Assembly (NCBI GenBank): GCA_010024385.1
Contig: RGHD01000007.1
Coordinates: forward strand, 1-45,461
Direction: 5' to 3'
Source: Actinomycetota bacterium
GTDB taxonomy: Bacteria; Actinomycetota; Actinomycetes; Nanopelagicales; Nanopelagicaceae
DNA: 45,461 bases
A program made the translations under genes and the position numbers. Positions 1,411 through 36,843 of this stretch are shown here, in pieces (within the stretch, counting starts at the first letter, position 1; the number at the start of each line of letters is the position of its first letter). Below the pieces are notes generated by a model, which was not told where the DNA came from, searched no databases, and saw only the letters and a list, made by a program, of their open reading frames with translations.

Positions 1411-2018
1411 AAGTTAGTGCTTTAACATTTGCCGTCCAATCATTTGTAACTTTATTTGTAATCATGGATCCGCCTGGCGCTACGCCAATTTTCTTAGCCC
1501 TAGTTGCAGATAAATCTGCAAAAGAGCGCAGGATTCTTGCTATTAAAGCTGCTTTAGTTTCTTTGCTTGTGATTTCGATTTTTGCATTATTTGGTCGTTT
1601 TATTTTGAGTTATCTCAATGTGTCAATTGCAGCATTACAAGCTGCCGGCGCACTACTACTTTTACTTATCTCTTTAGATCTTTTAACTGGTGGAAAGGGA
1701 AGCGGACGCGGTGACTCTAAAGATGACAATATTGCACTTGTCCCCCTAGGCACACCTCTACTTGCTGGACCTGGTGCAATCGTTGCAACAATGATTTTCG
1801 TTCAGCAAATCGATAGCCCAAGCATGGCTGTGGGCTTAGTTGGCGCTGTTATAGCTGTTCACGTTGCTATTGCAGCAGCGCTAATGGCTTCTACAACAAT
1901 TATGAAAGTAATTAAGGAAGCTGGAGTGACACTTGTGGCACGCATTGCTGGTCTGTTACTTGCAGCCATTGCAGTTCAGATGTTGGTGGATGCAATTCGA
2001 GTTTTTGTTACTACTTAA
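1407..2018 (+). CDS. MarC family integral membrane protein
   Basis: MarC/UPF0056 family membrane protein of 203 aa, the standard length. It shows about six hydrophobic segments and the family signatures MDPPGATPIFLAL near residue 20 and PLGTPLLAGPGAI near 112. The biochemical role of the family is unsettled; the old link to multiple antibiotic resistance was withdrawn and an amino-acid exporter role has been proposed. Start overlaps the PHP stop by ATGA. Its TAA stop is shared with the opposing helicase gene in a TTAA quartet at 2015-2018. Confidence 0.88.
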   Translation: MKVSALTFAVQSFVTLFVIMDPPGATPIFLALVADKSAKERRILAIKAALVSLLVISIFALFGRFILSYLNVSIAALQAAGALLLLLISLDLLTGGKGSGRGDSKDDNIALVPLGTPLLAGPGAIVATMIFVQQIDSPSMAVGLVGAVIAVHVAIAAALMASTTIMKVIKEAGVTLVARIAGLLLAAIAVQMLVDAIRVFVTT

Positions 2019-3349
2019 CTCTCTTTAAACTTCTTAGTACGTGTGCGAGTTCGCTCAACTTTTGGCTTTGATTCAACCTTCTTGTCAACACGTTTTTCAG
2101 GGGTAGCCTTTTGTTGTATTACAGGCTTGCTCTTAGTGATTCGCCCCGTGGAACCTGCTGGGATATCTAGAACTTCATAGAGGTGTGGGGAAGAGGAATA
2201 AGTCTCTTCTGGTTCAGCTAAACCGAGATCTAGAACCTGGTTAATCATCTTCCATCTTGCTAATTCATCCCAGTCAACGAATGTGACTGCGATTCCATGT
2301 GCTCCAGCACGTGCTGTGCGACCAATACGGTGCACGTAAGTTTTTTCATCTTCAGGGCACTGGTAATTAATTACATGTGTAATTCCATCAATATCAATTC
2401 CACGAGCGGCAACATCTGTTGCAACAAGAACATCTGATTTGCCTGCTTTGAAATCACCCAAAGCTTTTTCACGTGCACTTTGACCAAGATCTCCATGGAT
2501 AGGCGCGGCTTTAAAGCCTCGCTCCATTAAGTCTTCTGCAGTCTTTTGGCAGGTGCGCTTGGTGCGGCAGAAAACCATTGTTGGGCCACGACCTTCGGCC
2601 TGCAAGATACGAGCAAGCATTTCAATCTTATCCATGGCATGAGCGCGTAGAACATGCTGCTTGATACGTGTGACCACAGCTCCTTCATCTTCTGAATCTT
2701 GAGTTCGAATATGAATAGGTTGATTCATAAAGCGACGGGCAAGAGCGATGATGTCTCCAGGCATAGTTGCTGAGAACAACATAGTTTGCATGCGATTTGG
2801 TGTGTTTGCCAAGATCTTTTCAACATCTGGCAAGAAACCAAGATCTAACATCTCATCTGCTTCATCTAGGACTAAGCGTGAAACTTGCTTTAACCGAAGT
2901 TGTCCTTGGCGAGAAAGATCTAGCAAGCGACCTGGTGTTCCAACAACGATTTCAATTCCAGCTTGTAGAGCCTCAATTTGCGGTTCGAATGCGCGTCCAC
3001 CATAAACAGCTAAAGTTCTAATTCCACGGTTACTTGCTAACTCTTCAATGTCTTTTGTGACCTGAGTACAAAGTTCGCGAGTTGGAACCACTATGAGAAC
3101 CTGCGGCATTCCCTTATGGTCAAACTCTGCCCACTCTGTGTCATTTGGCGCAATAACTCTCTCGATAACTGGGACGCCGAAAGCTAGAGTCTTTCCGGTA
3201 CCTGTTTTAGCCTGACCAATAACATCACCATCACTGAGTGCAATGGGCAAAACCATCTCTTGAATAGCAAATGGAGCGATGAAGCCATGTGAATGAAGTG
3301 CCTCAATGGTTTCAGGTCGTAATGGGAGTTCTGCGAAAGTTTTCGACAC
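2015..3349 (-). CDS. DEAD-box ATP-dependent RNA helicase (RhlE-like)
   Basis: Cytoplasmic ATP-dependent RNA helicase of 444 aa, expected to remodel structured RNA in ribosome assembly or mRNA decay. Motifs in order: Q-motif region (FAIQEMVLPIA, residues 27-37), Walker A AKTGTGKT (47-54), PTRELC (89-94), GTPGR (137-141), DEAD (162-165), SAT (193-195) and HRIGRTARAG in the second RecA domain. A short basic tail (TRTRTKKFKES) is probably for RNA contact. Start codon is GTG. A helicase, a TetR regulator and MoeZ in this neighbourhood match Rv3211, Rv3208 and Rv3206c of M. tuberculosis, so it is probably the RhlE equivalent. The 3' end overlaps marC by 4 bp. Confidence 0.93.
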   Translation of the reverse strand: MSKTFAELPLRPETIEALHSHGFIAPFAIQEMVLPIALSDGDVIGQAKTGTGKTLAFGVPVIERVIAPNDTEWAEFDHKGMPQVLIVVPTRELCTQVTKDIEELASNRGIRTLAVYGGRAFEPQIEALQAGIEIVVGTPGRLLDLSRQGQLRLKQVSRLVLDEADEMLDLGFLPDVEKILANTPNRMQTMLFSATMPGDIIALARRFMNQPIHIRTQDSEDEGAVVTRIKQHVLRAHAMDKIEMLARILQAEGRGPTMVFCRTKRTCQKTAEDLMERGFKAAPIHGDLGQSAREKALGDFKAGKSDVLVATDVAARGIDIDGITHVINYQCPEDEKTYVHRIGRTARAGAHGIAVTFVDWDELARWKMINQVLDLGLAEPEETYSSSPHLYEVLDIPAGSTGRITKSKPVIQQKATPEKRVDKKVESKPKVERTRTRTKKFKES

Positions 3350-3408
3350 GTTAAGCGGCGCCAGAAATTTGTTTATTAGTGGAGCTCATAGAAGTAATCC
3401 TATCGGAG

Positions 3409-4020
3409 TTAATTGCGAGGGAAACCCGAAATTCCTCGCCACATGAGGTTGTTGACCAATTCAACTGCCTGTTCACGCGTTAATGTACTGTCTCGATCTA
3501 ACCAATGTCGTGCTGTTACTTGGGCATAGCCAATCATTCCAACACCTAAGAGCATTGAAGCTTCTTTTGGAAGTCCTGTATCAATAGAAATTACGGCACT
3601 AGCAGCAGCTGCGCAGTCATAAGTCATACGATTAAGGCGCTCACGCACAGATGGCTCAACACTCATATCACTCTCAAAGAGAAGTCTGAATGCTTCACCC
3701 TCTTTTTCGATAAAAGCAAAATATGCATTAACAGTGGCATACACGCGATTAGCGTTGTCAGGAGTCGAGGCTATAGCTCTCTGAATTTCAAAAACTAATG
3801 AGTCAATATGTAAATCAAGAACTGCAAGATAAAGCTCTAACTTTGACGGAAAGTGCTGATACAAAACTGGCTTGCTAACATTTGCGCGATCTGCGATTTC
3901 ATCCATTGCCGCAGAGTGATAACCAGCAGCAGTAAAAACCTCTAGGGCTGCTGAGAGCAAAAGTGCGCGACGCTCGTCACGAGGCAAACGCGGCTTATTT
4001 GATGAATCAATTGTGCTCAT
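3409..4020 (-). CDS. TetR family transcriptional regulator
   Basis: DNA-binding regulator of 203 aa. The N-terminal TetR helix-turn-helix spans roughly residues 18-65, with the recognition-helix signature NVSKPVLYQHFPSK; the C-terminal half is the ligand/dimer domain. It is divergent from moeZ with 82 bp between starts, and lies in the position of Rv3208 of Mycobacterium. The small DUF3107 gene that usually accompanies this regulator is not present. A -10 hexamer TACGAT ends 7 bp before the ATG, so the mRNA is probably leaderless; a small palindrome sits just upstream of it. Ligand and targets cannot be read from sequence. Confidence 0.88.
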   Translation of the reverse strand: MSTIDSSNKPRLPRDERRALLLSAALEVFTAAGYHSAAMDEIADRANVSKPVLYQHFPSKLELYLAVLDLHIDSLVFEIQRAIASTPDNANRVYATVNAYFAFIEKEGEAFRLLFESDMSVEPSVRERLNRMTYDCAAAASAVISIDTGLPKEASMLLGVGMIGYAQVTARHWLDRDSTLTREQAVELVNNLMWRGISGFPRN

Positions 4021-4027
4021 TGGTGTA

Positions 4028-4033
4028 ATCGTA
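4028..4033 (-). promoter_or_regulatory. -10 box of leaderless tetR promoter
   Basis: TACGAT read on the minus strand, followed by 7 nt (tacacca) and then the ATG at 4020. This matches the TANNNT -10 pattern at leaderless distance seen repeatedly in this window. Confidence 0.6.
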
Positions 4034-4042
4034 GAGGCTCTA
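4032..4042. promoter_or_regulatory. Palindrome at the tetR/moeZ divergent promoter
   Basis: TAGAGGCTCTA, 5-bp arms around a single central base, immediately upstream of and touching the tetR -10 box. It could be an autoregulatory TetR operator half-site, but it is short for that family and may be chance. Confidence 0.3.
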
Positions 4043-4102
4043 TAGGTGAATGCGCTAATAGTTGTAGCAACACATGCGTGAATACGGCAGAATTGACCTC
4101 CT

Positions 4103-5236
4103 ATGAAAATACCACCGCTTGTAAATCCTGGCCCAGCACTCAGTGCGCAGCAAGCGCGTCGGTATAGTCGCCAGATTGTTATTCCACAGATTCAGGCAAG
4201 TGGTCAAGAGCGCATTCGAAATGCAAAGGTTTTGTGTATCGGTGCAGGTGGTCTTGGTTCTCCTGCGCTAATTTATTTAGCAGCAGCCGGAGTTGGAACT
4301 ATTGGAATAGTTGATTTCGATACTGTTGATGAAACCAATCTGCACCGTCAAGTCCTTTATGGCCAGTCCGATATCGGAAAAAAGAAAGTTGATGTTGCTA
4401 AATCAAAAATTGAAGAAAGAAATCCATTAGTTGAAATCAATGTTTATCCAGTAAGAATCAACCCCTCAAATGTTTTTGAAATTATGGCAGACTACGACAT
4501 AGTCATTGATGCCACAGATAATTTTGCAACGCGCTACTTGATTAACGATGCTGCAGTGTTACTCAAAAAACCTTATGTGTGGGGTTCAGTAAATCGCTTT
4601 GATGGGCAAGCTGCAGTTTTTTGGAGCACCCTCGGTCCGTGCTATCGCTGTCTGCATCCAGAACCTCCTGCACCAGGGTCAGTCCAAAGCTGTGCAGATG
4701 CAGGTGTGTTTGGTGTGTTGTGCGCTTCAGTTGCTTCGATTCAAGTTAATGAAGTAATTAAAGCCATCACTGGCATAGGCGAGCTTCAAATTGGAAAGCT
4801 CATGATCTATGAAGCGTTGGAGGCAGAGCATTCAAAGATTAATATTCATAAAAATCCACAGTGTGTAATTTGTGGTCAGAACCCAACTCAGCTCAACCTC
4901 TTAGAGAACTATGAAAGTTTTTGCGGCGTAGCTTCAGTACCGGAAATTTCTGTTGAAGATCTAAAGAAGAAGTTTGCGGCTAGTGATGACTTTATTCTCA
5001 TTGATGTTAGAGAACCTGATGAATTTGCTAGCTCTAGAATCCCTGGTTCGGTATTGATTCCAAAGGCTGGTTTTTTCGATGGAACGGCTTTAGAGCTACT
5101 ACCCAGAGATAAAGAGATTATTCTTCACTGTCGCTCTGGGGTTAGATCAGCACATTGTCTCGCCATCATTCAAGGGGCAGGCTTTATAAATTCACGCCAC
5201 CTTGGCGGGGGAATACTTGCATGGGAGAAACAGTGA
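4103..5236 (+). CDS. moeZ: MoeZ-type adenylyltransferase/sulfurtransferase
   Basis: Two-domain protein of 377 aa that activates the C-terminal glycine of ubiquitin-like sulfur carriers (MoaD, ThiS or CysO type) by adenylation and then thiolates it. The ThiF/MoeB domain (about 15-250) has the nucleotide loop GAGGLGSPA (47-55), the TVDETNLHRQ stretch, a CYRC zinc pair near 181 and a CVIC pair near 255. The rhodanese domain (about 278-377) has the active loop HCRSGVRS with Cys343. Mycobacterial MoeZ has the same fusion and neighbourhood. Divergent from tetR; the stop overlaps the mshB start region, so the two are probably co-transcribed. Likely feeds molybdopterin, cysteine or thiazole sulfur supply. 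Confidence 0.92.
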   Translation: MKIPPLVNPGPALSAQQARRYSRQIVIPQIQASGQERIRNAKVLCIGAGGLGSPALIYLAAAGVGTIGIVDFDTVDETNLHRQVLYGQSDIGKKKVDVAKSKIEERNPLVEINVYPVRINPSNVFEIMADYDIVIDATDNFATRYLINDAAVLLKKPYVWGSVNRFDGQAAVFWSTLGPCYRCLHPEPPAPGSVQSCADAGVFGVLCASVASIQVNEVIKAITGIGELQIGKLMIYEALEAEHSKINIHKNPQCVICGQNPTQLNLLENYESFCGVASVPEISVEDLKKKFAASDDFILIDVREPDEFASSRIPGSVLIPKAGFFDGTALELLPRDKEIILHCRSGVRSAHCLAIIQGAGFINSRHLGGGILAWEKQ

Positions 5237-6087
5237 AAAATTCTTATCAGGGCTATCGAATTCTGCTTGTGCATGCACATCCAGATGATGAAACTATCAA
5301 TAACGGTGCAACTATGGCTCTTTATGCATCACTCGGCGCACAAGTAACTTTAGTGACGTGCACTCGTGGTGAAGAGGGAGAAGTTTTAGTCCCATCACTT
5401 TCTCATCTAGCTAGCAGCGAAAAAGATGAATTAGGAAAGCACCGCGAAATTGAATTAGCACTGGCTATGAAAGCTCTTGGCATTACAGACTTTAGATTCT
5501 TAGGAAACTATCGAGATAGTGGAATGATGGGAACGGAACCTAATAATCGCCCTGATGTTTTTTGGCAAGCAGATTTGGATTCGGCAGCCGGTGAGTTAGT
5601 CAAAATCATTGAAGAGGTAAAGCCGCATGTTTTGATTACTTATGATGAAATCGGTGGCTATGGACATCCAGATCATATTAAAGCGCATTTAGTTGCTATG
5701 AGGGCAAGTGAGCTAGCAACGTGGCAAATCCAAAAGATTTATTGGAACACGGTTCCTAAATCAGTTATCGCGCAAGGGATGGAGGCCATGAAAGAGATTG
5801 GCTCTGATTTCTTTGGGGCAGAAAGCATTGATGATCTACCATTTGCAAAAGATGATTCATTTGTAACTACTTTAATTGATGGTAATGATTTTGTTGATGC
5901 CAAAATGGCAGCTATGAAGGCTCATGAAACACAGATTGCATTAGATGGGCCATTTTTTGCCCTTTCAAATAACTTAGGTTTACAAGTTTGGGGCCATGAG
6001 TACTACACATTAGTTAAAGGGCCAAAGAGTGCGCCTTTTGATGAACAAGGCCGTGAAAGTGACTTAACTTCCGGAGTTGTCCTGTAA
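5221..6087 (+). CDS. mshB: MshB-like N-acetyl-GlcN-inositol deacetylase (LmbE family)
   Basis: Zinc-dependent deacetylase of about 288 aa, the size of mycobacterial MshB, which removes acetate from GlcNAc-Ins in mycothiol synthesis. Metal ligands are visible as AHPDDE (residues 19-24) and GYGHPDHIKAH (about 147-157). The track start at 5155 adds unrelated residues; real options are ATG 5221 or GTG 5233, the latter giving a GTGA overlap with the moeZ stop. I prefer ATG 5221 but this is a close call. The following DUF6113-like gene also accompanies mshB in other actinobacteria, which favours MshB over the Mca amidase or other LmbE proteins. Confidence 0.85.
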   Translation: MGETVKNSYQGYRILLVHAHPDDETINNGATMALYASLGAQVTLVTCTRGEEGEVLVPSLSHLASSEKDELGKHREIELALAMKALGITDFRFLGNYRDSGMMGTEPNNRPDVFWQADLDSAAGELVKIIEEVKPHVLITYDEIGGYGHPDHIKAHLVAMRASELATWQIQKIYWNTVPKSVIAQGMEAMKEIGSDFFGAESIDDLPFAKDDSFVTTLIDGNDFVDAKMAAMKAHETQIALDGPFFALSNNLGLQVWGHEYYTLVKGPKSAPFDEQGRESDLTSGVVL

Positions 6088-6398
6088 TGCGAAAAATCTA
6101 TGCAATTGTGATTGGTGCTGGACTCGGGGCGGGTTCAGTTTTTCTGCATGCATCATTAGTTCCATTTGGTTTAATCTTTGTTCTTCTTGCAACCTTGGTC
6201 GGTATTTGGAGTATTGGTCGCTTGTGGGGCGAGCGAACTCTAAAAGTATTGGCCGCAGCAGCCTGGACCTTCGTAGTGTTACGAGCAGGCTTTCCAGGCA
6301 TCAATCAGGAGTACTTAATTGAAGGTACTTCTGTTGGGATATCACTCATCAATATTGGATTTCTAGCTTTAGTAGTTGCTGTTTTGCTTCCTGTTTAA
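6087..6398 (+). CDS. Small integral membrane protein, DUF6113-like
   Basis: Protein of 103 aa with four hydrophobic segments and no soluble domain. I recognise it as the DUF6113-type membrane protein often found directly after mshB in actinobacteria; its function is unknown. Translation is coupled to mshB through TAATG (stop and start share one base). Its TAA stop is shared with the opposing cysS gene in the TTAA quartet at 6395-6398. The family name is from position and overall look, not a profile match. Confidence 0.7.
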   Translation: MRKIYAIVIGAGLGAGSVFLHASLVPFGLIFVLLATLVGIWSIGRLWGERTLKVLAAAAWTFVVLRAGFPGINQEYLIEGTSVGISLINIGFLALVVAVLLPV

Positions 6399-7753
6399 CG
6401 CCAATTCCAAGTTTGCCCATCAGGACCATCCATAATTTCAAGGCCACTCTGCTCTAGTTTTACTCTTAACTCGTCACTGTCTGCCCATCGCTTTTCATTT
6501 CTTGCAATCTGGCGCAGTTTAAGAATTTCTTCTTGTTCTAAGGATAAAGCGCTAATGACTTCTTCTCTGGCAAGATCAAGCCCCAATATCTGATCTGCAA
6601 ATAGAAAGAGCGCTGCGCGATTATTGATATTTTCATTCTTTTCCAACGCGCGCAGATACTGAATGGCTTTTGGTGTATCCAAATCGTTATCAAGAAATTC
6701 CAAGAACTCTGCATCTTTCACAGGAATCTGTATTCCCCATGTCCTTATCTTCTTACGCCAACGTTTCAACGTTGAGTCAGCAGCCTCAATTGAGGCCCAC
6801 GTTAAGTCCATTTGAGATCGATAACGGTTCTCTAGAAAACAAAGTCTGACGGCAAGGGGATCAAAGCCGCGATCTATAACATCTTTAAGAAGCACAACAT
6901 TTCCAGCACTTTTTGACATCTTGCGGCCTTCAAAAAGCAGATGCTCTCCATGAAGCCATAGATCCACACTTTCATTTCCAGTAATGGCATTTGATTGAGC
7001 TCGCTCGTTTTCATGATGAGGAAAACGCAGATCAATTCCTCCAACATGGAGATTGATATGAGAATTCAAGAAATGAAGTGACATTGCTGAACATTCAATA
7101 TGCCAACCAGGAAAACCTGGACCCCATGGTGAATCCCAAATCATTTCTTTGCGACCACCAGCGTTCTTCCAGAGCGCCCAGTCAGCGTGAAAACGTTTAG
7201 CGCCATCTTCACTGTATTCATAGCGATGACCAGGCTTGAGTGCATCTAAACGATTACCACTTATCGCGCCGTAACTTGGAAATGCTTGAGCAGAGAAGTA
7301 GACCGTGTCATCCTCACCCACATATGCAAATTCCTTAGAGATGAGTTGCTCAATCATTGCAAGCATTAACTCAATTGATTCGCTAGCTCTTGGATAAGCA
7401 TCTGCCTTTTCAATATTCAGACGTGCTAAGTCTGTATGAAAACCTGCCTCATATTTTCGTGCCACCGAGAATGGATCTATGGATTCAGCTTTAGCTTGAG
7501 CAAGCATTTTGTCTTCACTCTCAATATCTTCAGACATGTGCCCAACATCAGTAATGTTTTGAATAAGTTTCACATTAATGCCATTGACTATTAGGACTCG
7601 GCGTACCAAATCTGAAAGTAGGAAAGTTCTTAAATTTCCAACGTGTGCATCCCGATAAACGGTGGGTCCACAGCAATACATTGTTGTGGTTCCATTAGTG
7701 GAAGTGACAGGTGCAAGCTTTCTGGTAGCTGTGTCATAGAGTCGAAGGCTCAC
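6395..7753 (-). CDS. cysS: Cysteinyl-tRNA synthetase
   Basis: Class I aminoacyl-tRNA synthetase of 452 aa that charges tRNA-Cys. Visible features: zinc-ligand region YCCGPTVY with Cys28, HIGH-type motif HVGN (37-40), second zinc Cys in GWHIECSAMS, zinc histidines in FPHHENERAQS and the KMSKS loop. The full-length C-terminal helical/anticodon region separates it from MshC, the shorter mycothiol ligase paralogue. Start ATG overlaps the upstream 66-aa gene by 4 bp, so the two form one operon. It follows mshB convergently, but no mshC is present in the window. Confidence 0.93.
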   Translation of the reverse strand: MSLRLYDTATRKLAPVTSTNGTTTMYCCGPTVYRDAHVGNLRTFLLSDLVRRVLIVNGINVKLIQNITDVGHMSEDIESEDKMLAQAKAESIDPFSVARKYEAGFHTDLARLNIEKADAYPRASESIELMLAMIEQLISKEFAYVGEDDTVYFSAQAFPSYGAISGNRLDALKPGHRYEYSEDGAKRFHADWALWKNAGGRKEMIWDSPWGPGFPGWHIECSAMSLHFLNSHINLHVGGIDLRFPHHENERAQSNAITGNESVDLWLHGEHLLFEGRKMSKSAGNVVLLKDVIDRGFDPLAVRLCFLENRYRSQMDLTWASIEAADSTLKRWRKKIRTWGIQIPVKDAEFLEFLDNDLDTPKAIQYLRALEKNENINNRAALFLFADQILGLDLAREEVISALSLEQEEILKLRQIARNEKRWADSDELRVKLEQSGLEIMDGPDGQTWNWR

Positions 7754-7950: not shown

Positions 7951-7956
7951 GGCTCA

Positions 7957-21334: not shown

Positions 21335-21386
21335 GAGACCGGTACGAGAGATTAGATCAGTTCGTGAGCTTTGAAAGGTTGCATTG

Positions 21387-24059
21387 ATGCCAGCGTTTTT
21401 TGACAAGCTTATGCGTGCAGGCGAGGGTCGCATCCTTCGTGAACTGAGCAAGATTGTTGTTGACGTAAATGCACATGAAACTCGCATTGTTGCAATGTCT
21501 GATTCAGAGCTTCGTCAACAAACAGAGCTATTTAAAGACCGCTTTTCTAAAGGCGAAACTTTAGATGATTTGTTGCCAGAGGCTTTCGCTGTAGTTCGTG
21601 AAGCAGCAAAACGAACTTTGGGACAGCGTCATTATGACGTTCAGATTATGGGTGGCGCCGCTCTACATAAAGGCAATATCGCCGAAATGCGTACTGGTGA
21701 AGGTAAAACTTTAGTTGCCACATTGCCATCTTATTTAAATGCTCTAGCTGGTCGTGGAGTTCATGTTGTTACAACAAATGACTATTTAGCAGAGCGTGAC
21801 AGTGAGTGGATGGGTCGTATTCACCGCTTCCTCGGTTTAAAGGTTGGCGTGATTTTGGCCAACATGACTCCAGCAGAGCGTCGCGAAGCATACCTTGCTG
21901 ACATTACATATGGCACAAATAATGAATTTGGTTTTGATTACTTGCGCGATAACATGGCGTGGTCGCTTGAAGAGTGTGTACAACGTGATCACTTCTTTGC
22001 TGTAGTTGACGAAGTAGACTCGATTTTAATTGATGAAGCACGTACACCATTAATCATTAGTGGACCTGCTGATAAAGCAACTAAGTGGTATGTTGAATTT
22101 GCAAACCTTGTCGGTAAATTACAGCGCGATGTTCACTATGAAATTGACGAGAAGAAGCGCACTATTGGGATTCTTGAAGATGGTGTAACGAAGGTGGAAG
22201 AGCTTCTTCAAATCGGAAACCTCTATGAGGCTGCAAATACACCCATGATTGGTTACCTCAATAACGCAGTGCGTGCGAAAGAGCTCTTCAAGCGCGATAA
22301 GGATTACGTAGTAATGAATGGTGAACTGCTTATCGTTGATGAGCACACCGGTCGCATGTTGGCTGGTCGTCGTTATAGCGAGGGTCTACACCAGGCTCTA
22401 GAGGCAAAAGAGCGGATCGAAATTAAGGATGAAAACCAAACTCTTGCAACTATTACCCTGCAAAACTATTTCCGCCTCTACGAGAAACTCTCAGGCATGA
22501 CTGGTACAGCCATGACAGAGGCTTCAGAATTTCACCAGATTTACAAGCTAGGTGTTGTACCAATTCCAACAAACCGCAGCATGATCCGTATCGATCAACC
22601 TGACCTTGTCTATAAAACAGAAGCTGGAAAGTTCATTGCTGTAACTGCAGACATTGTTGAAAAGCACCGCAAGGGCCAACCAGTTCTAGTTGGCACAGTC
22701 AGTGTTGAAAAATCAGAAGAGCTCTCTAGTTTCTTACGCAAAGCTGGAGTCCCACATGAAGTTCTAAACGCCAAGCATCATGAGCGCGAGGCAGCAATCA
22801 TTGCTCGCGCAGGTGTTAAAGGCGCTGTAACTGTTGCCACAAATATGGCTGGTCGTGGTACCGACATTATGCTTGGCGGAAACCCTGAGTTCATGGCAGA
22901 TTTCGAATTACAGCGTCGAGGAATTTCACCAGTAGATGATGCAGAGCAATATGAAAAAGCTTGGCCAGAGGAAATCACTCGCCAAAAGGCAGCGGTTGCA
23001 CGTGGACATGAAGAAGTAATTGCACTCGGTGGTCTCTATGTATTAGGTACTGAGCGACATGAGTCTCGACGCATCGATAATCAGTTACGTGGTCGTTCTG
23101 GTCGCCAAGGTGATCCAGGCGAATCACGTTTCTACCTTTCACTCCAAGATGAGTTAATGCGTCGATTTAACTCAGGAATGGTTGAGCGTTTCTTAACAGC
23201 TGCAGGCATTCCAGAAGATGCTCCGATTGAATCCAAAATGGTTAGTAATGCAATTCGTTCAGCACAAACCCAGGTTGAGTCCCAGAACTTTGAAATGCGC
23301 AAAAATGTTTTAAAGTATGACGATGTCATGAATCGCCAGCGCCAAGTGGTTTATGGTGAGCGTCGAATGGTTCTAGAAGGTGCAGATATTAAGGATCAGG
23401 TAGCCACTTTTGTTAGTGACACGCTAACGGCCTATGTCAGCATGGCTACCTCTGAAGGTTATTCAGAGGATTGGGATCTAGATACCTTGTGGAAGGCTCT
23501 TAAAACTATTTATCCAATCTCATTTACTATTGATGAACTTATTGCTCGTGTTGGTTCGCGCGCTGGACTTGATAAAGAGTTCTTAACGGCTGCAGTTATT
23601 GAAGATTGCAAGGCAGCTTATGCAAAGCGCGAAGAGTCACTTGGATCCGAGGCTATGCGCGAACTTGAGCGCAAAGTCTTGCTCTCGGTTCTCGATCGTA
23701 AATGGCGAGAGCACCTCTATGAGATGGACTATTTGCAAGAGGGAATTGGCCTACGTGCGATGGCACAGCGTGATCCACTCGTAGAGTATCAACGCGAAGG
23801 TTTTGATTTGTTCTCAGCGATGATGGATGCAATCAAAGAAGAAATTGCTGGATTCCTGTTCAATATCGAAGTAACTGTTGAGCCTTCAGGCAAGGAAGTA
23901 AGTGGTGCAGGTCTTGAAGCTAAGCCGCTATCTGCTAGCGGACTGCAATACACGGCAGCAGATGAGTCTGGTGTGAAAACTACTGGGGATGTTTCTCGTA
24001 ATGCACAATGTCCATGTGGGTCAGGTAAGAAGTACAAGCGTTGTCACGGTGCTGCTTAA
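21387..24059 (+). CDS. secA: Preprotein translocase ATPase SecA
   Basis: SecA motor of 890 aa driving export through SecYEG. Walker A MRTGEGKT near 101, DEVDS near 210, [13 protein letters not shown], and the Q-G-R motif region [19 protein letters not shown] are present. The C-terminal zinc hook [14 protein letters not shown], which binds SecB-type partners or ribosomes, is intact. The track start at 21384 is a TTG one codon upstream; ATG 21387 with AAAGG 8 bp before is more likely. This is the housekeeping SecA1 (Rv3240c position). Its TAA stop shares TTAA with the opposing gene. Confidence 0.96.
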
Positions 24060-24622
24060 AGCAAAGTAAGTGCAGTACATAACCATCTCTTATCAATACC
24101 TTCAAATCGCACAAGCATCGCACGTAGGCGATTCTCATATCGGATAGTAATTGTTGCTTCACAGATTCCATCTAGTGGTTCTTGAATGTGTATTTTACGA
24201 ATATGTCCAATAGCTTTCTGTGAACCTGATTGTCTAACTAACTCAGAAAAAATCTTATGATGACACAAAGCTTCCACTTGCCGTGGAGATCTTCGCCCAG
24301 CCCAAATTTCAACAATTGAATGTGCAAAGCGCTCAGTCCACGCTTGTAGTTCAGGAAGATCTCTGGCAGATGTTGGTTCCGGTGCAAAATCTGGATCAAA
24401 CTCATCATCAAATCCAGATGGAACGAGGTAAAGCTTGCTGGGCTTGACTGTTTGGGGCTGCTCTTGTGGTCTGAAAATTTCCAGTAGCGGATGCTGCCAA
24501 TCAACATTTGTGGCACTTGTTAGTTTCTCAATGCGAAAACTGCTAATAGAAATCTCTTCTACTACTCGGTTAGTGGTCATGAGTGAAGGGTGCAACTTTC
24601 CGTACTCACTTTGCTCAACCAT
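24056..24622 (-). CDS. Rv3235 family protein (DUF6459-like)
   Basis: Protein of 188 aa without membrane segments. The conserved C-terminal half begins at [31 protein letters not shown] and ends in [23 protein letters not shown], the pattern of the actinobacterial Rv3235 family encoded near secA1. The N-terminal ~80 residues are low in conservation and probably flexible. An internal ATG (MTTNRVV, 14 codons in) is a possible alternative start. Function is unknown. The 3' end overlaps secA by 4 bp. Confidence 0.8.
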
Positions 24623-26796: not shown

Positions 26797-28266
26797 ATGC
26801 CCCAGTTTGAAACATTGATCCATAGCCGTAGCTCAGTAACAATCGATCAGGCTCACAAACTGCGAGAATTAGTTGCTGATTGGCAACTGCTTTCAGATCT
26901 CTCCTTTGCCGATCTTATTCTTTGGGTTCCTATTCGCAAAGATATGAAGATGTGGCCTACGGGCCATGTGGCTGTGGCACATATTCGCCCAACAACTGCA
27001 GCAACTGTTTTTACCAATGATGTTATTGGTGATGAAGTGATGTGGGGGAGTCGTCCACGAATTGACTCTGCTTTATCTAGCGGTGAAATTGTTCGTGATT
27101 CAGAGGCTGAAAAAGTCGGCGAACTAATGATTAAAGAAGAAGCGATCCCTGTTGTTTTTGATGGGCAAGTAATTGCTGTAATAACCCGCCACCGTAATGC
27201 TGAGTTAATGCGCTCACCCAGCCGACTTGAATTAAATTATCGCGAGATTGCACATAGCCTTTATCGGATGGTGGCCCAAGGCAGCTTTCCGTATCCTGAT
27301 GCAAGTTCACTCTTTGAACCAGTGCCACGCGTGGGAGATGGTTTGATTCGACTGGATGTTAATGGCGTTATTTCATATGCAAGTCCCAACGCTCGATCTG
27401 CATTTAGTCGAATGGGTTGGAAGAGTGAGATTGAAAACAATAAATTAGGTGAAGTAGCTGAAGCAGTAGCTAAGAATTCACCTAATCCTCATGAAGAAGG
27501 AATTCGCACACGACTTAATGGAAAGACCTTGCGCCGTGTTGATATTGATAACCAAGGCGCAACTATTGACTTACTGGTGCTCCCATTGTTGCAAGGTGAA
27601 GATCGCATAGGTGCCATTGTTTTGCTTCAAAATGTGACTGAACTTCGTAGACGCGACAGAGAGCTTGTTACCAAAGATGCAACTATTAGAGAAATTCATC
27701 ATCGTGTTAAAAACAATCTCCAGACTGTTTCAGCTCTTCTTCGCTTACAGGCGCGCAGAATTGAAGACCCGAGTGCATCATCGGCCCTTAATGAAGCGGT
27801 GCGCAGAATCGCCTCTATTGCACTTGTTCATGACACGCTTTCTACAAGTAGTGAAAATGAAGTTGCATTTGATGAAGTGCTTACAAGTTTGATTACTCAT
27901 GCACTTGAGTTAAGTCCTCGCATGGGCGAACTAAGAATTGAGAGAAAAGGTGAGTTGGGTTCTCTTGAATCAAGGCTGGCAACGCCACTCTCACTTGTTG
28001 TTACAGAGTTAATGCACAACGCCCTAGAGCATGGTTTAGCCGAGCAGGGCTCAGTTCTTACTATTGAATTGTCTCGCTATAGCAATGAATGTGTCATCAA
28101 TATTACAGATGATGGAGTCGGTCTACCAAAGGATTTTGATTTAGCTACATCTTCAAATCTAGGGCTTCAGATTGTTCGAACCTTGACAGAGAATGAGCTT
28201 AAAGGTGTGTTGAAATTGCAATCAACTGATTCGGGAACTCAAGCTAACTTACGATTCCCACTTTAG
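26797..28266 (+). CDS. pdtaS: PdtaS-type sensor histidine kinase (HisKA_2)
   Basis: Soluble histidine kinase of 489 aa. GAF-like domain about 20-160, PAS-like domain about 180-285, HisKA_2 dimerisation box EIHHRVKNNLQTVSALL (phospho-acceptor His301/302), then an HWE/HATPase domain with N box ELMHNALEHGL and DDGVGLP. Mycobacterial PdtaS (Rv3220c, ~501 aa) phosphorylates the RNA-binding antiterminator PdtaR. It is convergent with whiB1 exactly as here. The track start adds 15 unrelated residues; ATG 26797 has a GGGGAG site 8 bp upstream and follows the DUF6912-like stop by one base. No PdtaR is in the window. Confidence 0.92.
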   Translation: MPQFETLIHSRSSVTIDQAHKLRELVADWQLLSDLSFADLILWVPIRKDMKMWPTGHVAVAHIRPTTAATVFTNDVIGDEVMWGSRPRIDSALSSGEIVRDSEAEKVGELMIKEEAIPVVFDGQVIAVITRHRNAELMRSPSRLELNYREIAHSLYRMVAQGSFPYPDASSLFEPVPRVGDGLIRLDVNGVISYASPNARSAFSRMGWKSEIENNKLGEVAEAVAKNSPNPHEEGIRTRLNGKTLRRVDIDNQGATIDLLVLPLLQGEDRIGAIVLLQNVTELRRRDRELVTKDATIREIHHRVKNNLQTVSALLRLQARRIEDPSASSALNEAVRRIASIALVHDTLSTSSENEVAFDEVLTSLITHALELSPRMGELRIERKGELGSLESRLATPLSLVVTELMHNALEHGLAEQGSVLTIELSRYSNECVINITDDGVGLPKDFDLATSSNLGLQIVRTLTENELKGVLKLQSTDSGTQANLRFPL

Positions 28267-28532
28267 AATTGGTTCTGTTGCTCCATTAAACGAGCACGAT
28301 TACGTGCAGCACGACGCTTAAGTGCACGACGCTCATCTTCTGAAAGTCCGCCCCAAACGCCAGCATCTTGTCCGCTCTCTAGCGCCCATGCAAGGCATTG
28401 TTCTTTAACGATGCAACGATTACAAACCTTTTTAGCCTCTTCAATTTGGGTAATTGCCGGTCCAGTATTTCCAACCGGGAAGAAGAGTTCAGGATCTTCA
28501 TCACGACAGGCTGATTGATGTCGCCAATCCAT
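28263..28532 (-). CDS. whiB1: WhiB family Fe-S regulator WhiB1
   Basis: Iron-sulfur regulator of 89 aa, close in sequence to the essential, nitric-oxide-sensitive WhiB1 of mycobacteria, which binds the primary sigma factor. Start MDWRHQSACRDEDPELFFPVG is the family N-terminus; the track's 29 extra residues are leader translation. Cluster cysteines at 9, 37, 40 and 46; GVWGG turn 58-62; basic DERRALKRR tail. ATG 28532 has a GAAGGGGG site upstream. The leader holds two inverted repeats. The 3' end overlaps pdtaS by 4 bp (TTAG). Confidence 0.95.
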   Translation of the reverse strand: MDWRHQSACRDEDPELFFPVGNTGPAITQIEEAKKVCNRCIVKEQCLAWALESGQDAGVWGGLSEDERRALKRRAARNRARLMEQQNQF

Positions 28533-28840: not shown

Positions 28841-29368
28841 ATGAGTTCAATCGCATATTTTGCAACAGGTTGCTTTTGGGGTGCTGAGCGCCGCTTTTGG
28901 CAGTTGGATGGAGTGAAGCAAACTTCAGTTGGCTATATGGGTGGTACGCGTCCAAACCCATCATATGAACAAGTGTGCACAGGAGTAACTGGTCACGCTG
29001 AAATGGTTGCAGTCACATTTGATGAGTCAAAGGTGAGTTATCAGCGATTGCTAGAAGAGTTTTGGACAATGCATGATCCAACATCTTTAAATCAACAAGG
29101 TGGCGATATTGGAACCCAATATAGAAGTGCCATTTACACAACCACACCTGAGCAATATGTAATAGCTGTTAATTCACGTAATGTGTATCAAAATGCTTTA
29201 ACTTCTGCAGGTTTAGATGAGATTGTGACAGAGATCAAGAGTGCTGAAGGAGTTCCATACTACTTAGCTGAGGAATATCACCAGAAGTATTTGCTAAAAA
29301 ACCCTAATGGTTATGACTGCCACTCAAGCACAGGCATCGCATACCCAAACGCTGGAATACATGCATGA
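28841..29368 (+). CDS. msrA: Peptide methionine sulfoxide reductase MsrA
   Basis: Reduces the S-form of methionine sulfoxide in proteins. About 175 aa. The catalytic motif GCFWG sits at residues 10-14 from this start, with the conserved YMGG, EQV.TGVTGHAE and EYHQKYL stretches. Candidate starts are ATG 28832 and ATG 28841; a TACTGT hexamer at 28822-28827 would place transcription start near 28834, favouring 28841. Start overlap (ATGA) couples it to msrB. The Msr pair fits the sulfur/redox theme of the window. Confidence 0.95.
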   Translation: MSSIAYFATGCFWGAERRFWQLDGVKQTSVGYMGGTRPNPSYEQVCTGVTGHAEMVAVTFDESKVSYQRLLEEFWTMHDPTSLNQQGGDIGTQYRSAIYTTTPEQYVIAVNSRNVYQNALTSAGLDEIVTEIKSAEGVPYYLAEEYHQKYLLKNPNGYDCHSSTGIAYPNAGIHA

Positions 29369-29778
29369 GTGAGAAAAACTATCCTGTTCAGATAGATGAA
29401 GCTGCTCTAAAGGCAAAATTAGACCCACTTTCATATGAAGTCTTACGCAACGCTGCTACTGAACGACCATTTACTGGTGAATACACAGACACTGACAAAG
29501 TGGGTGTCTACAAGTGCAAAGCGTGCAACGCCCAACTTTTCCGTAGTGAAACTAAGTTTCACTCTGGATGCGGATGGCCATCCTTCTATGCTCCAACTTC
29601 AGATGATGCTGTTGAACTCATTGAAGATCGTTCACTATTTCCACGGGTCAGAACTGAAGTGCGATGTGCTGCCTGTGGTTCGCACCTAGGTCATATCTTT
29701 AAAGGTGAGGGTTATGACGTCCCAACGGATGAGCGCTGGTGCATTAACTCTGTCTCATTAATCCTTGAGGATATTTAG
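29365..29778 (+). CDS. msrB: Peptide methionine sulfoxide reductase MsrB
   Basis: Reduces the R-form of methionine sulfoxide, complementing MsrA. 137 aa. Two zinc CXXC pairs (CKACN near 50 and CAACG near 97), FHSGCGWPSFY, GHIFKGEG and the catalytic cysteine in RWCINS near 128 are present. Start overlaps the msrA stop by ATGA. The TAG stop shares the TTAG quartet with the opposing glycosylase gene. Confidence 0.96.
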   Translation: MSEKNYPVQIDEAALKAKLDPLSYEVLRNAATERPFTGEYTDTDKVGVYKCKACNAQLFRSETKFHSGCGWPSFYAPTSDDAVELIEDRSLFPRVRTEVRCAACGSHLGHIFKGEGYDVPTDERWCINSVSLILEDI

Positions 29779-30419
29779 TAGTCCAGCCCGCGGCTTTCAT
29801 GAACTGCTTGATAGCAATACCAGGCAACAACACTTCGGTATGGATGCAGTTTCTCACCCTTTACATCTAATTCCTTCGCCAGAGTTTCTTCCTTGTTCTT
29901 ATGGACCAAGTCCCAACCCCGGCGCACAGCTAAATCTCCAGTGGGCCAAACATTCAAACGCCCCAATTGAAACATCATAAACATCTCAACAGTCCAGCGC
30001 CCTATGCCCCATAGTGAAGTTAACTTCTCATAAATCTCCTGATCATCATGGATTTCATCGATGGTATCTATGGCAATTGATTTATCGGCAACAGCTCCAG
30101 CTAAGCCCTTTAATGTGCGAGCTTTTGCACCGGATACACCTATTTCTCGAAGTGCAATCTCATCTAGTTTGATCAGTTTATTTGCATTTATCGTTCCCTT
30201 ACAAAGATCAATCAAGCGCCCATGAATAGTCTCAGCAGCCTTTACAGCTAATTGTTGGGAGATAACTGAACTAACCAAAGATTCAAAATGAGACTCTGTT
30301 GGAGTACTTCGGCCGATTGTGCACAGGGGGCGACGAGCAATCAGTGGTGCAAATTTGCGATCCATCTCTGCAACTTCGGCAACTATACGTCGCATCTTTT
30401 GTGCAGAGTGGACCGCCAT
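29775..30419 (-). CDS. DNA-3-methyladenine glycosylase II (AlkA-like, HhH-GPD)
   Basis: Base-excision repair glycosylase of 214 aa removing alkylated bases. The HhH-GPD core is visible: helix-hairpin-helix LTSLWGIGRWTVEMFMMF and the loop VWPTGDLAVRRG with the catalytic Asp. Preceding SSVISQQLAVKAAETI is also family-typical. It lacks the N-terminal beta domain of E. coli AlkA, as in the short actinobacterial and yeast Mag1-like forms. It starts 3 bp after the DUF4389 stop and is probably co-transcribed with it. Confidence 0.9.
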   Translation of the reverse strand: MAVHSAQKMRRIVAEVAEMDRKFAPLIARRPLCTIGRSTPTESHFESLVSSVISQQLAVKAAETIHGRLIDLCKGTINANKLIKLDEIALREIGVSGAKARTLKGLAGAVADKSIAIDTIDEIHDDQEIYEKLTSLWGIGRWTVEMFMMFQLGRLNVWPTGDLAVRRGWDLVHKNKEETLAKELDVKGEKLHPYRSVVAWYCYQAVHESRGLDY

Positions 30420-30422
30420 AGA

Positions 30423-31016: not shown

Positions 31017-31023
31017 AGTGGTC

Positions 31024-31029: not shown

Positions 31030-31088
31030 GTCCTAAATGAGTGCGAGGTATTGCCAATTGCAGTGTTAATGCCCTATTTTGCAGTCTC

Positions 31089-31117: not shown

Positions 31118-31132
31118 ATGCGGGGGCAGTTG

Positions 31133-32146: not shown

Positions 32147-32180
32147 TTTTAGCCTCTTTCACTAATTGAGCTGGGCAGGG

Positions 32181-32186
32181 TAACCT
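32181..32186 (+). promoter_or_regulatory. -10 box of leaderless patB-like promoter
   Basis: TAACCT followed by agccgct (7 nt) and then the ATG at 32194. The surrounding GGGCAGGGTAACCTAGCC resembles the sahH upstream element. Confidence 0.6.
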
Positions 32187-32193
32187 AGCCGCT

Positions 32194-33363: not shown

Positions 33364-34877
33364 TGAAGCAATATGACGTTGCGGTTATTGGCGGGGGCCA
33401 TAACGGTCTCGTTGCAGCAACATATTTAGCTAAAGCTGGAAAGACCGTAGTCATTCTTGAAGCTAATGCCGAGGTGGGTGGAGCAACTACAAGTGTTAGA
33501 GCATTTCCCGAATATGACGCCATGCTCTCGCGTTACTCCTATTTGATTTCACTATTACCTGATCAAATAGTCAGTGAACTAGGGTTAGATTTTGAGTGTA
33601 TTTCAAGAACAGTTTCTAGTTACACCCCATATTCTCGAAACGGAAAAGATTCTGGACTTTATGTGGCACGCCAATGGGACACAGAAACTGAAGCCTCCTT
33701 TATTGAGTTAGATCCAAGCGGTGCAGAGTGGGCGGCTTGGCAGGATTTCTATAATGAGATAGCCGAGTTTGCAGTAAAAATCGCCCCATCTATGCTGCAG
33801 CCTTTAAAGAGTAGAAGTGAGTTAAAAGCAGAGATTAATATGCCAGAAGTATGGAATTACTTGATTGAGCGCCCAATCGGTGAGGTAATTGAAGAACGAT
33901 TCAAGGATGATCTAGTTCGCGGTGTTATATTGACCGATGCGCTGATTGGGACCTTTTCCTCAGCATATGAAATGCAAGCAAATATCTGCTTTTTGTATCA
34001 CTTGATTGGTAATGGAACTGGCGAGTGGAAGGTTCCACGCGGTGGAATGGGCGCACTGGTTAAAGAGTTAGTGCGGGTGGCCACTGCTGCTGGAGTTGAG
34101 ATAAAAGTTAACGCTCGAGTTAAATCTGTTGCTACAGATAAAGAAAATGCAATTTTGACATTAGAAGATGGATCCTCAGTTACATCTAGCTTTGTATTGA
34201 GTAATGCTGCACCTCAAGTTTTAGCTCGATTACGTGGAAAGACACCACCGGTAAGTCTTGAAGGTTCGCAGATGAAGATCAATATCTTGTTGAAGTCTCT
34301 TCCTCAATTAAAATCTGGAATAGACCCACGGTTAGCTTTTGCTGGAACTTTTCATGCTTTTGAATCTTTTGCTCAGTGTGAATCAACATATCTGCAAGCT
34401 AAGGGTGGTGCTATGCCAGAAATGCTTCCTGTTGAAATGTATTGCCACACGCTCACTGATCCATCAATTCTTAGTGCTGATCTGCAGGCGCAGGGATATC
34501 AAACACTGACACTTTTTGGATTGCACACACCAGCTGCACTCTTTAATACTGATAATGAAGGGGCGAAAGCTGCCGCACTCAAAGCTGCTCTAGCCTCACT
34601 CAATCAATATTTAGTAGAGCCACTTGAGAATGTTATTGCAGCAATTGAAGTTAAGTCACCGCTAGATATCGAGAGCGATGTTGGCCTACCGCGAGGCAAT
34701 ATCTTCCATAAGGATTTGAGTTTTCCATTTCGTGAAGATAGCCAGCAAACACGCTGGGGAGTAGAAACTGATGATCCACGTATCTTTATCTGCGGCGCTG
34801 GAGCAATCCGTGGCGGTGGAGTCAGTGGCATTCCAGGACACAACGCTGCAATGGCAGTGCTTGAAGCATCAGCATAG
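33363..34877 (+). CDS. FAD-dependent oxidoreductase (phytoene-desaturase/PYROXD2-like)
   Basis: Flavoprotein of 504 aa. Rossmann FAD loop VAVIGGGHNGLVAATYLAKAG (6-26) followed by EANAEVGGATTS, a mid-region GGMGALVKELVRVA typical of CrtI/PYROXD2 proteins, and the C-terminal FAD signature GAGAIRGGGVSGIPGHNAA. Carotenoid desaturation is possible, but no crtB or other carotenoid gene is nearby; the PYROXD2-like branch has no fixed substrate. GTG start shares one base with the upstream stop. The context between two C-S bond enzymes hints at oxidation of a sulfur or amine metabolite, which is inference only. Confidence 0.85.
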   Translation: MKQYDVAVIGGGHNGLVAATYLAKAGKTVVILEANAEVGGATTSVRAFPEYDAMLSRYSYLISLLPDQIVSELGLDFECISRTVSSYTPYSRNGKDSGLYVARQWDTETEASFIELDPSGAEWAAWQDFYNEIAEFAVKIAPSMLQPLKSRSELKAEINMPEVWNYLIERPIGEVIEERFKDDLVRGVILTDALIGTFSSAYEMQANICFLYHLIGNGTGEWKVPRGGMGALVKELVRVATAAGVEIKVNARVKSVATDKENAILTLEDGSSVTSSFVLSNAAPQVLARLRGKTPPVSLEGSQMKINILLKSLPQLKSGIDPRLAFAGTFHAFESFAQCESTYLQAKGGAMPEMLPVEMYCHTLTDPSILSADLQAQGYQTLTLFGLHTPAALFNTDNEGAKAAALKAALASLNQYLVEPLENVIAAIEVKSPLDIESDVGLPRGNIFHKDLSFPFREDSQQTRWGVETDDPRIFICGAGAIRGGGVSGIPGHNAAMAVLEASA

Positions 34878-34880
34878 GAT
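34875..34880 (+). promoter_or_regulatory. Possible leaderless -10 box before the CGS-type gene
   Basis: TAGGAT overlaps the stop codon of the upstream gene; tagcag (6 nt) then the ATG at 34887. It could alternatively act as a weak AGGA ribosome binding site, so this is less certain than the others. Confidence 0.4.
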
Positions 34881-34886
34881 TAGCAG

Positions 34887-35942
34887 ATGAGCAAAAAGAT
34901 TGAAACCAGCGCAATTACTGCCGGACGTCCAGCAGTCACACCAGATGCACCACTTAATCCTTCAATTGATTTAACGTCAACTTTTCACTCAGGTGGTCCG
35001 ATTGGTTATGGCCGTTATGGAAACCAAACATGGACATCGCTAGAAGATGCAATAAGTGAGTTAGAGGGTGGACAGACTCTTACTTTTTCTTCTGGCATGG
35101 CAGCAATTAGTGCGGTTTTTTCAATTCTTCCAGTAGGTGCACCTATCGTTGCATCAAATCAAGGCTATAGCGGTGTGATGAGTTTGTTGAATTCTTTTCA
35201 CACAAGCGGTCGTCTGGAAGTTAGATTCGTAGATGTAGTAAATACTCAAGAGGTAATTGATGCGATGAAAGGTGCAGCTCTGGTTTGGCTAGAGTCGCCA
35301 ACAAATCCATGTTTAGATGTGGCTGATCTTCCTGCTTTGATTAGCGCAGCAAAAAAGCTAGGAATAGGTGTTGCAGTCGATAACACCTTCGCAACTCCAC
35401 TTGTGCAAAATCCGCTGGCAATGGGCGCTGACATTGTGATGCACTCTGTTACTAAGTTCTTATCTGGCCATAGTGATGTTTTGATGGGATCACTCTCAAT
35501 TAGTGATCCAGCATTATTTAAGCGTCTGCATGATTCACGTAGCTTTAACGGCTCTATTCCAGGTCCATTTGAGGCTTGGCTTGCACTGCGTGGATTGCGC
35601 ACATTCCCGCTGCGCTTTAACAAGTCACAAGAAAACGCTAAGGAGTTAGTAAAACGACTCACGAGCCATCCAAAAATCTCACGTGTTCGCTATCCAGGTT
35701 TTGGAGCCATCGTTTCTTTTGAAGTTGATGGAACTGCAGAACAAACCCAAAAAGTCTGTGAATCATCAACAATGATTGCTCATGCCACATCATTGGGTGG
35801 AGTTGAGTCACTATGGGAGCGCAGACGCCGCTGGCCAATTGAATCTCCAACCGTTCCAGAGCAGCTCATTCGTCTATCAGTGGGCTGTGAGCACGTTGAT
35901 GATATTTGGGACGACATCACTAGAGCTCTAAACGCCATCTAG
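34887..35942 (+). CDS. Trans-sulfuration PLP enzyme (cystathionine gamma-synthase/lyase family)
   Basis: Cys/Met-metabolism PLP enzyme of 351 aa. It has YGRYGNQTWTSLEDAISELEGG for cofactor contacts, FSSGMAAISAV, WLESPTNP, VDNTFATP and the Schiff-base Lys190 in SVTKFLSGHSDV. It is about 30 residues shorter than typical MetB/MetC. Whether it synthesises cystathionine (MetB), cleaves it (MetC/CTH) or acts as a methionine gamma-lyase cannot be told. It follows the FAD enzyme and the PatB-like lyase in one direction, giving a sulfur amino-acid cluster. Confidence 0.88.
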   Translation: MSKKIETSAITAGRPAVTPDAPLNPSIDLTSTFHSGGPIGYGRYGNQTWTSLEDAISELEGGQTLTFSSGMAAISAVFSILPVGAPIVASNQGYSGVMSLLNSFHTSGRLEVRFVDVVNTQEVIDAMKGAALVWLESPTNPCLDVADLPALISAAKKLGIGVAVDNTFATPLVQNPLAMGADIVMHSVTKFLSGHSDVLMGSLSISDPALFKRLHDSRSFNGSIPGPFEAWLALRGLRTFPLRFNKSQENAKELVKRLTSHPKISRVRYPGFGAIVSFEVDGTAEQTQKVCESSTMIAHATSLGGVESLWERRRRWPIESPTVPEQLIRLSVGCEHVDDIWDDITRALNAI

Positions 35943-35964
35943 GGCGGGAATTCGCAATAGAGAG

Positions 35965-35970
35965 TATTTT
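35965..35970 (+). promoter_or_regulatory. -10 box of leaderless 49-aa gene promoter
   Basis: TATTTT followed by tgtctc (6 nt) and then the ATG at 35977. Confidence 0.5.
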
Positions 35971-35976
35971 TGTCTC

Positions 35977-36126
35977 ATGATTAAAGCCCTTCGCCGGACC
36001 ATTGCAGCAGTAACTGTTGCTGTGTTGGCTTTTCGCGCCGTGGGCTCATTCCTTTCATGGATAGAACACCAAGAAGATACTGCGGCAGATACGTGGATTG
36101 ATGAAGATGAGTTTGAGGATGTCTGA
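35977..36126 (+). CDS. 49-aa single-pass membrane microprotein
   Basis: Short ORF below the track cutoff, encoding 49 aa: a basic start (MIKALRR), one hydrophobic helix (TIAAVTVAVLAFRAVGSFLSW, about 8-28) and an acidic tail (DTWIDEDEFEDV). The positive-inside N-terminus and acidic outside tail are what a real bitopic microprotein would show. A leaderless -10 box precedes the ATG, and its stop lies inside the start of the next membrane gene (8-bp overlap), which suggests coupling. I do not recognise a family. Confidence 0.6.
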   Translation: MIKALRRTIAAVTVAVLAFRAVGSFLSWIEHQEDTAADTWIDEDEFEDV

Positions 36127-36502
36127 TTCAACCTACATAGCAGGAACATGCAACATTGGACAAAAAGAGATTCGTAGAAGGCAATTTGTTGCCCTCGTTG
36201 GTCTATTTCTTTCCATATCATCTTTAATTGGAATGATTTCAGTTAGTGCTCCAACTGGTGCACGCGTGGGAATATTTCTACCTTTAATGGTGGCATCGGT
36301 GGGCTTTGTTCAGTCACGCAGTAAGTTCTGTTTGGCTTATGGTTTTGCTGGCACGTTCAATTTCGGCAAACTTGGCGATCTTTCCCGGGTGAGTGACCCA
36401 CAAGACAAAGCAGCAGATCGAGCTACAGCGTTAAAAATTCTTGGAAAATCTTTTCTCCTTGCTTTTATAGCAACATTGGTGGTTCTAGTACTACCCTTTT
36501 AA
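36119..36502 (+). CDS. Small two-helix membrane protein with conserved Cys
   Basis: Protein of 127 aa. It has an N-terminal GTCNIGQKEIRRRQ, a central hairpin of two membrane segments (FVALVGLFLSISSLIGMIS and GIFLPLMVASVGFV), then QSRSKFCLAYGFAG and a third C-terminal hydrophobic segment. The CNIG..E..RR and FxQxRxKxC pattern recurs in small uncharacterised bacterial membrane proteins. The track start at 36098 lies inside the microprotein gene; ATG 36119 is the likely start. Two bases separate it from hpf. Function unknown. Confidence 0.68.
   Translation: MSDSTYIAGTCNIGQKEIRRRQFVALVGLFLSISSLIGMISVSAPTGARVGIFLPLMVASVGFVQSRSKFCLAYGFAGTFNFGKLGDLSRVSDPQDKAADRATALKILGKSFLLAFIATLVVLVLPF
36492..36497 (+). 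promoter_or_regulatory. -10 box of leaderless hpf promoter
   Basis: TACCCT followed by tttaaac (7 nt) and then the ATG at 36505; it lies inside the end of the upstream gene. Confidence 0.55.
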
Positions 36503-36504
36503 AC

Positions 36505-36843
36505 ATGAAAATTCAAATTCATGCCCGTAATGCCGAACTTGCTGAAGACTTTAGAGAAATCGCAGAAGAAAAATTAAATTCTATGGAGCGTTTTGGTGTC
36601 GTTATAGACCGCGTTGAAATAGAAATACTCCATGAATCTAATCCACGTCTAGGTAAACATTCACACCGAGTGATTCTGACATCTCATGGCTCAGGGCCGC
36701 TGCTTCGTGCAGAGGCAAGTGAATTTAATGATCTTGCCGCTTTTGATGCTGCGATGAAGAGCTTTGATATTCAAATCCGTAGGATTCATGAAAAAAGTAA
36801 AGACTATAGTCGAGAAACAGTAAGGACTAAAGATATTAATTAA
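36505..36843 (+). CDS. Short ribosome hibernation factor (HPF/RaiA family)
   Basis: Ribosome-binding protein of 112 aa. The S30AE fold is visible: MKIQIHARNAELAEDFREIAEEKLNSMERF, then VEIEILHESNPRLG and ASEFNDLAAFDAAMKSFDIQIRR. It would bind the small subunit in stationary phase or stress. Actinobacteria normally carry a long HPF (over 200 aa with a C-terminal dimerisation domain) between comF and secA; here that site is empty and this short form sits about 12 kb beyond secA. Its stop shares TTAA with terC. A leaderless promoter fits rapid stress expression, which is inference. Confidence 0.85.
   Translation: MKIQIHARNAELAEDFREIAEEKLNSMERFGVVIDRVEIEILHESNPRLGKHSHRVILTSHGSGPLLRAEASEFNDLAAFDAAMKSFDIQIRRIHEKSKDYSRETVRTKDIN

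Follow-up and report, generated by a model that had tools for sequence, protein, structure and literature searches.

Converging genes in a compact Nanopelagicaceae lineage often share a 4-bp double stop, a recurrent and labile arrangement that probably reflects genome compaction

How tightly can two converging genes be packed, and is a bacterial lineage bound to one such arrangement? The question is raised by a contig of a Nanopelagicaceae bacterium (RGHD01000007.1; "the window" is the whole 45,461-nucleotide stretch that was analyzed; G+C, 44%; genome size, ~1.33 Mb). An independent dicodon-based gene caller placed exactly six convergent junctions across the window, all with a spacing of −4, meaning that the two genes overlap by 4 bp. 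Each overlap is a YTAR quartet that contains both stop codons, TTAA in four cases and TTAG in two. A sequence-only reading of this DNA had reported the same six quartets and had stated that every tail-to-tail pair in the window is of this kind; both statements were borne out by the sequence and by the independent gene calls. The G+C and genome size are compatible with the acI/Nanopelagicales placement guessed at in that reading. The junctions, with the basis of each assignment, are as follows:

2015..2018, TTAA double stop: marC-like gene (+, 1407-2018) and DEAD-box helicase gene (−, 2015-3349); sequence, Pfam MarC and DEAD; also −4 in the relative G015
6395..6398, TTAA double stop: gene for a 103-aa protein without a Pfam match (+, 6087-6398) and gene for a cysteinyl-tRNA synthetase class enzyme (−, 6395-7753); sequence, Pfam, orthologs
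24056..24059, TTAA double stop: secA (+, 21384-24059) and DUF6459, Rv3235-like gene (−, 24056-24622); sequence, Pfam, orthologs
28263..28266, TTAG double stop: pdtaS histidine kinase gene (+, 26797-28266) and whiB1-like gene (−, 28263-28532); sequence, Pfam, orthologs
29775..29778, TTAG double stop: msrB (SelR) (+, 29365-29778) and HhH-GPD DNA glycosylase gene (−, 29775-30419); sequence, Pfam, orthologs
36840..36843, TTAA double stop: short hpf-like gene, Ribosomal_S30AE (+, 36505-36843), and terC (−, 36840-37745); sequence, Pfam, orthologs

Eleven of the 12 flanking genes had Pfam matches (MarC, DEAD helicase, cysteinyl-tRNA synthetase class, SecA, DUF6459, PdtaS, WhiB, SelR, HhH-GPD, S30AE, and TerC). 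The gene that had earlier been called Rv3235 is a match to DUF6459 (PF20060). The exception, the 103-aa open reading frame at 6087-6398, is conserved beside the synthetase gene in relatives, and we judged it to be real from this conservation and its coding score only. The last gene of the contig, at 44219, lies on the forward strand, so no seventh junction is hidden at the contig end. The six junctions belong to a published class, the length-4 convergent stop overlap: they join real genes, the overlap is a 4-bp YTAR quartet with both stops, and the register is in excess genome-wide (see below).

Genes were called by dicodon (hexamer-based) log-odds scores followed by dynamic programming. The caller was trained on G015, which is the closest complete relative of the window (~93% DNA identity over most of its length). 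In three 50-kb stretches of Escherichia coli K-12 (L336, L337, and L339), nearly all convergent junctions agreed with RefSeq stop for stop, and a few small genes, such as rmf, were missed. For comparison we used samples of 220 kb from G014 and 400 kb from G041 (another genus of the same family) and samples of 400 kb each from E. coli K-12 and from a 5.5-Mb actinobacterium with 69% G+C.

In G015, 54 of the 162 convergent junctions were at −4 (33%; 95% interval, 26 to 41), 46 had longer overlaps, 37 were spaced by 0 to 20 bp, and 25 were spaced by more than 20 bp. The share was similar in G014 (10/33, 30%) and G041 (14/47, 30%). By comparison, E. coli K-12 had 4/49 (8%) and the 5.5-Mb actinobacterium had 0/55 (Fisher P = 4e−10), a contrast drawn from few genomes that differ in GC and stop usage. 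Part of the difference from the 69% G+C genome may reflect stop usage because TGA cannot join a quartet, and TGA-rich, high-GC genomes can hardly form one. The sequence-only reading had named a sharp 4-bp peak across genomes as its test, and G015 has such a peak: within ±30 bp, the −4 register held 54 junctions versus ~1.3 for each other register. More than half of all convergent overlaps in G015 (54/100) were of this length, and among overlaps in the same frame, 54 had length 4 and only 3 were longer.

The perfect score of the window is another matter. At a share of one-third, six out of six has a probability of 0.0014 if the window had been chosen beforehand, but a run of at least six consecutive −4 junctions appeared somewhere in 12% of shuffled G015 genomes. 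Clustering of −4 junctions was considered and rejected, as the longest run in G015 (five junctions) was unremarkable against the shuffles. The earlier claim that the pattern exceeds chance thus stands for the genome-wide peak and falls for the six junctions themselves, which are a lucky run and not a fixed rule.

Why the peak lies at 4 bp follows from the stop codons. On the forward strand, a stop starts with T and has A or G as its last base; read as its reverse complement, a stop starts with T or C and its last base is A. Two converging genes consequently cannot overlap by 1, 2, 3, or 5 bp, which makes 4 bp the minimum; none of the 162 junctions in G015 had a forbidden length. In a YTAR quartet the central TA is common to both stops, while each outer base both closes one stop and takes the wobble position in the final sense codon of the partner gene. 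Because of this wobble position, two genes that end in TAA or TAG after a Y-ending codon can merge without any change in protein.

The 54 quartets of G015 consisted of 29 TTAA, 20 CTAA or TTAG, and 5 CTAG, against 29.8, 20.6, and 3.6 expected from independent TAA and TAG frequencies (P = 0.73). The self-complementary TTAA had been proposed as a driver of the pattern; its count is what stop usage predicts, and we rejected a palindrome effect. As a separate observation, TGA was depleted at G015 convergent ends in every spacing class (0 to 14%), even where no quartet is formed, versus 33% at close tandem genes; widely spaced tandem genes were also low in TGA (9 to 13%).

Orthologous junctions varied widely in spacing. 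The junction between the 103-aa protein gene and the cysS-like gene was at −4 in 13 of 26 loci and between −26 and +7 in the rest; that of secA and the DUF6459 gene was at −4 in 11 of 30 loci, with most others at +1 to +19; and that of pdtaS and whiB1 was at −4 in 21 of 32 loci, with the others at 0 to +17 and mostly with the same C-termini. The msrB/HhH-GPD junction was at −4 in both relatives read. For hpf and terC, 2 of 10 loci (the window's own included) were at −4 and 8 were at +4 to +15. The differences went both ways: −4 junctions of G015 have partners in G014 or G041 at 0, −14, and −46, and G015 junctions at 0, +1, −11, and −38 have −4 partners there. Judged from these sequences, the −4 state is common, recurrent, and reversible and is not conserved for given gene pairs.

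The protein ends at these loci suggest how the state may be reached. PdtaS ends in RFPL and WhiB ends in QF or SF alike at spacings of −4, +5, +7, +14, +16, and +17, and across the pdtaS/whiB1 orthologs the wobble bases and the spacer vary while the C-termini stay. Similarly, the SecA C-terminus CHGAA is kept at both −4 and +4. In one relative (L165), PdtaS continues for six residues beyond FPL, and its stop again lies exactly at −4. These series contain both packing with unchanged C-termini (at two junctions) and one case of run-on.

We therefore consider it probable that the quartets are an outcome of compaction, the tightest packing of converging genes attained through silent spacer deletion and stop-loss run-on, and not a regulatory device. 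The lineage would keep losing spacer DNA, so that junctions slide into the YTAR state. A spacer might be deleted with both C-termini left intact; alternatively, a stop might be lost or a frame shifted, and the gene would run on to the ready-made antisense stop that its neighbor's stop codon supplies at ~45% of gene ends. Deeper overlaps would be weeded out afterward. The force behind the −4 state, whether selective or mutational, is one that we infer. An origin of the 4-bp overlaps in compaction, which the sequence-only reading had suggested in the form of deletion bias, is thus supported.

The same reading had called the arrangement a rule. In its strict form, the lineage would require a 4-bp stop quartet at every convergent pair, by way of deletion bias and the self-complementary TTAA, and the six junctions of the window would fit this, together with a stretch of five −4 junctions in a row where G015 is syntenic with it. 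However, two-thirds of the convergent junctions in G015 are not at −4, this genome-wide distribution and the shares of 30% in G014 and G041 refute a requirement, the same gene pairs occur in relatives at many other spacings, TTAA is no commoner than expected, and shuffled genomes yield such runs often enough; we give the rule practically no credence. Purely neutral run-on after stop loss, in which antisense YTAR stops and the purging of long overlaps produce the peak and −4 has no special value, has more in its favor, and we still regard it as improbable. YTAR forms 44.9% of all G015 gene ends, published run-on models agree with the convergent phases (PMC2174442), and the extended PdtaS of L165 is what run-on would produce. 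Given that frequency of YTAR ends, neutral run-on in a random frame predicts 15% of overlaps at length 4. Adding an exponential length penalty, fitted only on overlaps longer than 4 bp (best scale, 26 bp), raises the prediction to 37%, compared to the 54% observed; the excess has a P value of 0.0004 at the best fit and of 0.05 to 0.13 at steeper penalties. The near absence of longer overlaps in the same frame also speaks against run-on alone, as do the conserved C-termini of PdtaS, WhiB, and SecA, which show packing without run-on. Run-on by itself underpredicts the −4 class in this genome, and silent packing would supply the difference.

Nor is silent packing the sole route. Genes ending in K, E, Q, M, or W have no Y-ending last codon, but such residues were not enriched at the unpacked junctions of G015 spaced by 0 to 20 bp (51% versus 49% expected), so that a substantial share of the −4 junctions must come from run-on or from some other alteration at the last residue. 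A block by these residues was accordingly rejected as the cause of unpacked junctions. Convergent ends overall are poor in K/E/Q/M/W last residues.

The other consequence raised by the sequence-only reading, that such junctions leave no room for hairpin terminators, agrees with predicted hairpin energies in G015. We scanned for the best 30-nt hairpin within −15 to +75 of each stop. At the 25 convergent gaps of more than 20 bp, hairpins had a median of −12.2 and a mean of −12.9 kcal/mol, with 58% at or below −10. The −4 junctions showed no hairpin excess (median, −6.55 versus −6.8 to −6.9 kcal/mol in gene interiors), and neither did the longer overlaps or the spacings of 0 to 20 bp. Hairpins hidden inside the opposing gene were rejected as an explanation, as none rose above background at −4 junctions. 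Intrinsic termination thus persists at a minority of sites, where room allows, while ~85% of G015 convergent junctions are spaced at ≤20 bp and are without hairpin excess. The genome encodes Rho (660 bits versus TIGR00767). Downstream of the junctions, C-rich, rut-like stretches did not exceed a matched antisense control, and we rejected a rut-like downstream signal on this ground. RNAs at −4 junctions would be expected to end by Rho, by collision, or by read-through. More tentatively, most convergent junctions (the ~85%) could have lost their hairpin terminators, with these modes as the standard ending and with lineage-wide antisense 3′ ends over core genes, secA and whiB1 among them.

Such endings could themselves be under selection if merged stops were kept because read-through or colliding transcription regulates the partner gene, in the manner of an excludon. 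The lack of hairpin excess at −4 junctions and the presence of Rho would suit this, and there are precedents: in the reduced genome of Rickettsia prowazekii, converging genes without effective terminators produce antisense RNA (PMC3027695), and overlapping 3′ untranslated regions and head-on collisions are documented elsewhere (PMC7154746, on the excludon concept, and PMC13082048, in which head-on transcription collisions in E. coli are described and cited). The likeness to R. prowazekii and to excludons lies in convergent genes that lack effective terminators; theirs is known from RNA measurements, whereas ours is read from the DNA arrangement. Yet junctions at 0 to 20 bp and at overlaps longer than 4 bp lack hairpins equally, so that the absence of hairpins does not set −4 apart. 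Moreover, the −4 state is not kept for given pairs, and no downstream excess of rut-like C was found. We consider selection for transcriptional coupling very unlikely, and compaction remains the reading that we prefer.

The pattern has been described before. Lillo and Krakauer (2007) reported that convergent overlaps jump in number at length 4, where they are formed by the tetramers CTAA, TTAA, CTAG, and TTAG; they attributed short overlaps to compression and noted that the hairpin terminators of such pairs must sit within coding sequence (PMC2174442). The length, the four tetramers, and the attribution to compression are the same here, and we therefore regard this lineage as a strong example of an established pattern and not as a new phenomenon. 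The proportions differ: in their pooled set of 58 prokaryotic species, overlaps longer than 4 bp made up 1,218 of 1,890, whereas here over half of overlaps, and a third of all junctions, are at −4. Kingsford, Delcher, and Salzberg (2007, Mol Biol Evol), as described in PMC2784483 and PMC4161906, derived preferred convergent offsets from the positions of reverse-complement stops; compared with their model as presented there, spacer deletion with unchanged proteins seems also to be needed here. Our literature search, in a limited collection and thus weak evidence, found no report of the −4 share in acI genomes. The frequency of −4, its lability, and the lack of hairpins in this lineage are useful additions. 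They put numbers on the extent of gene packing in a highly compact bacterium, in which tail-to-tail genes most often meet in the shortest overlap permitted by the genetic code, a state reached repeatedly in different lineages, and they raise the question of how converging operons end where a terminator would not fit.

Two further observations concern individual loci. Within the otherwise collinear, ~93% identical G015, terC (36840-37745) and a small open reading frame (39455-39832) appear to be missing; at the hpf locus there, hpf abuts an amylase gene with a spacing of 0. G091, too, has amylase, terC, and hpf in this order and the terC/hpf junction at −4, which makes loss of terC in G015 the simpler reading. 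In a SAR11 sample, 21 of 52 junctions were at −4, a count that is not a fair genome sample because a single orthologous pair, located near the 16S gene, accounts for 40 of the 52. That pair (from loci among L213-L292) was at −4 in 18 of the 40 loci, and the remaining loci had many different spacings, so that it behaves as junctions in the window's lineage do, with a recurrent and labile −4 state.
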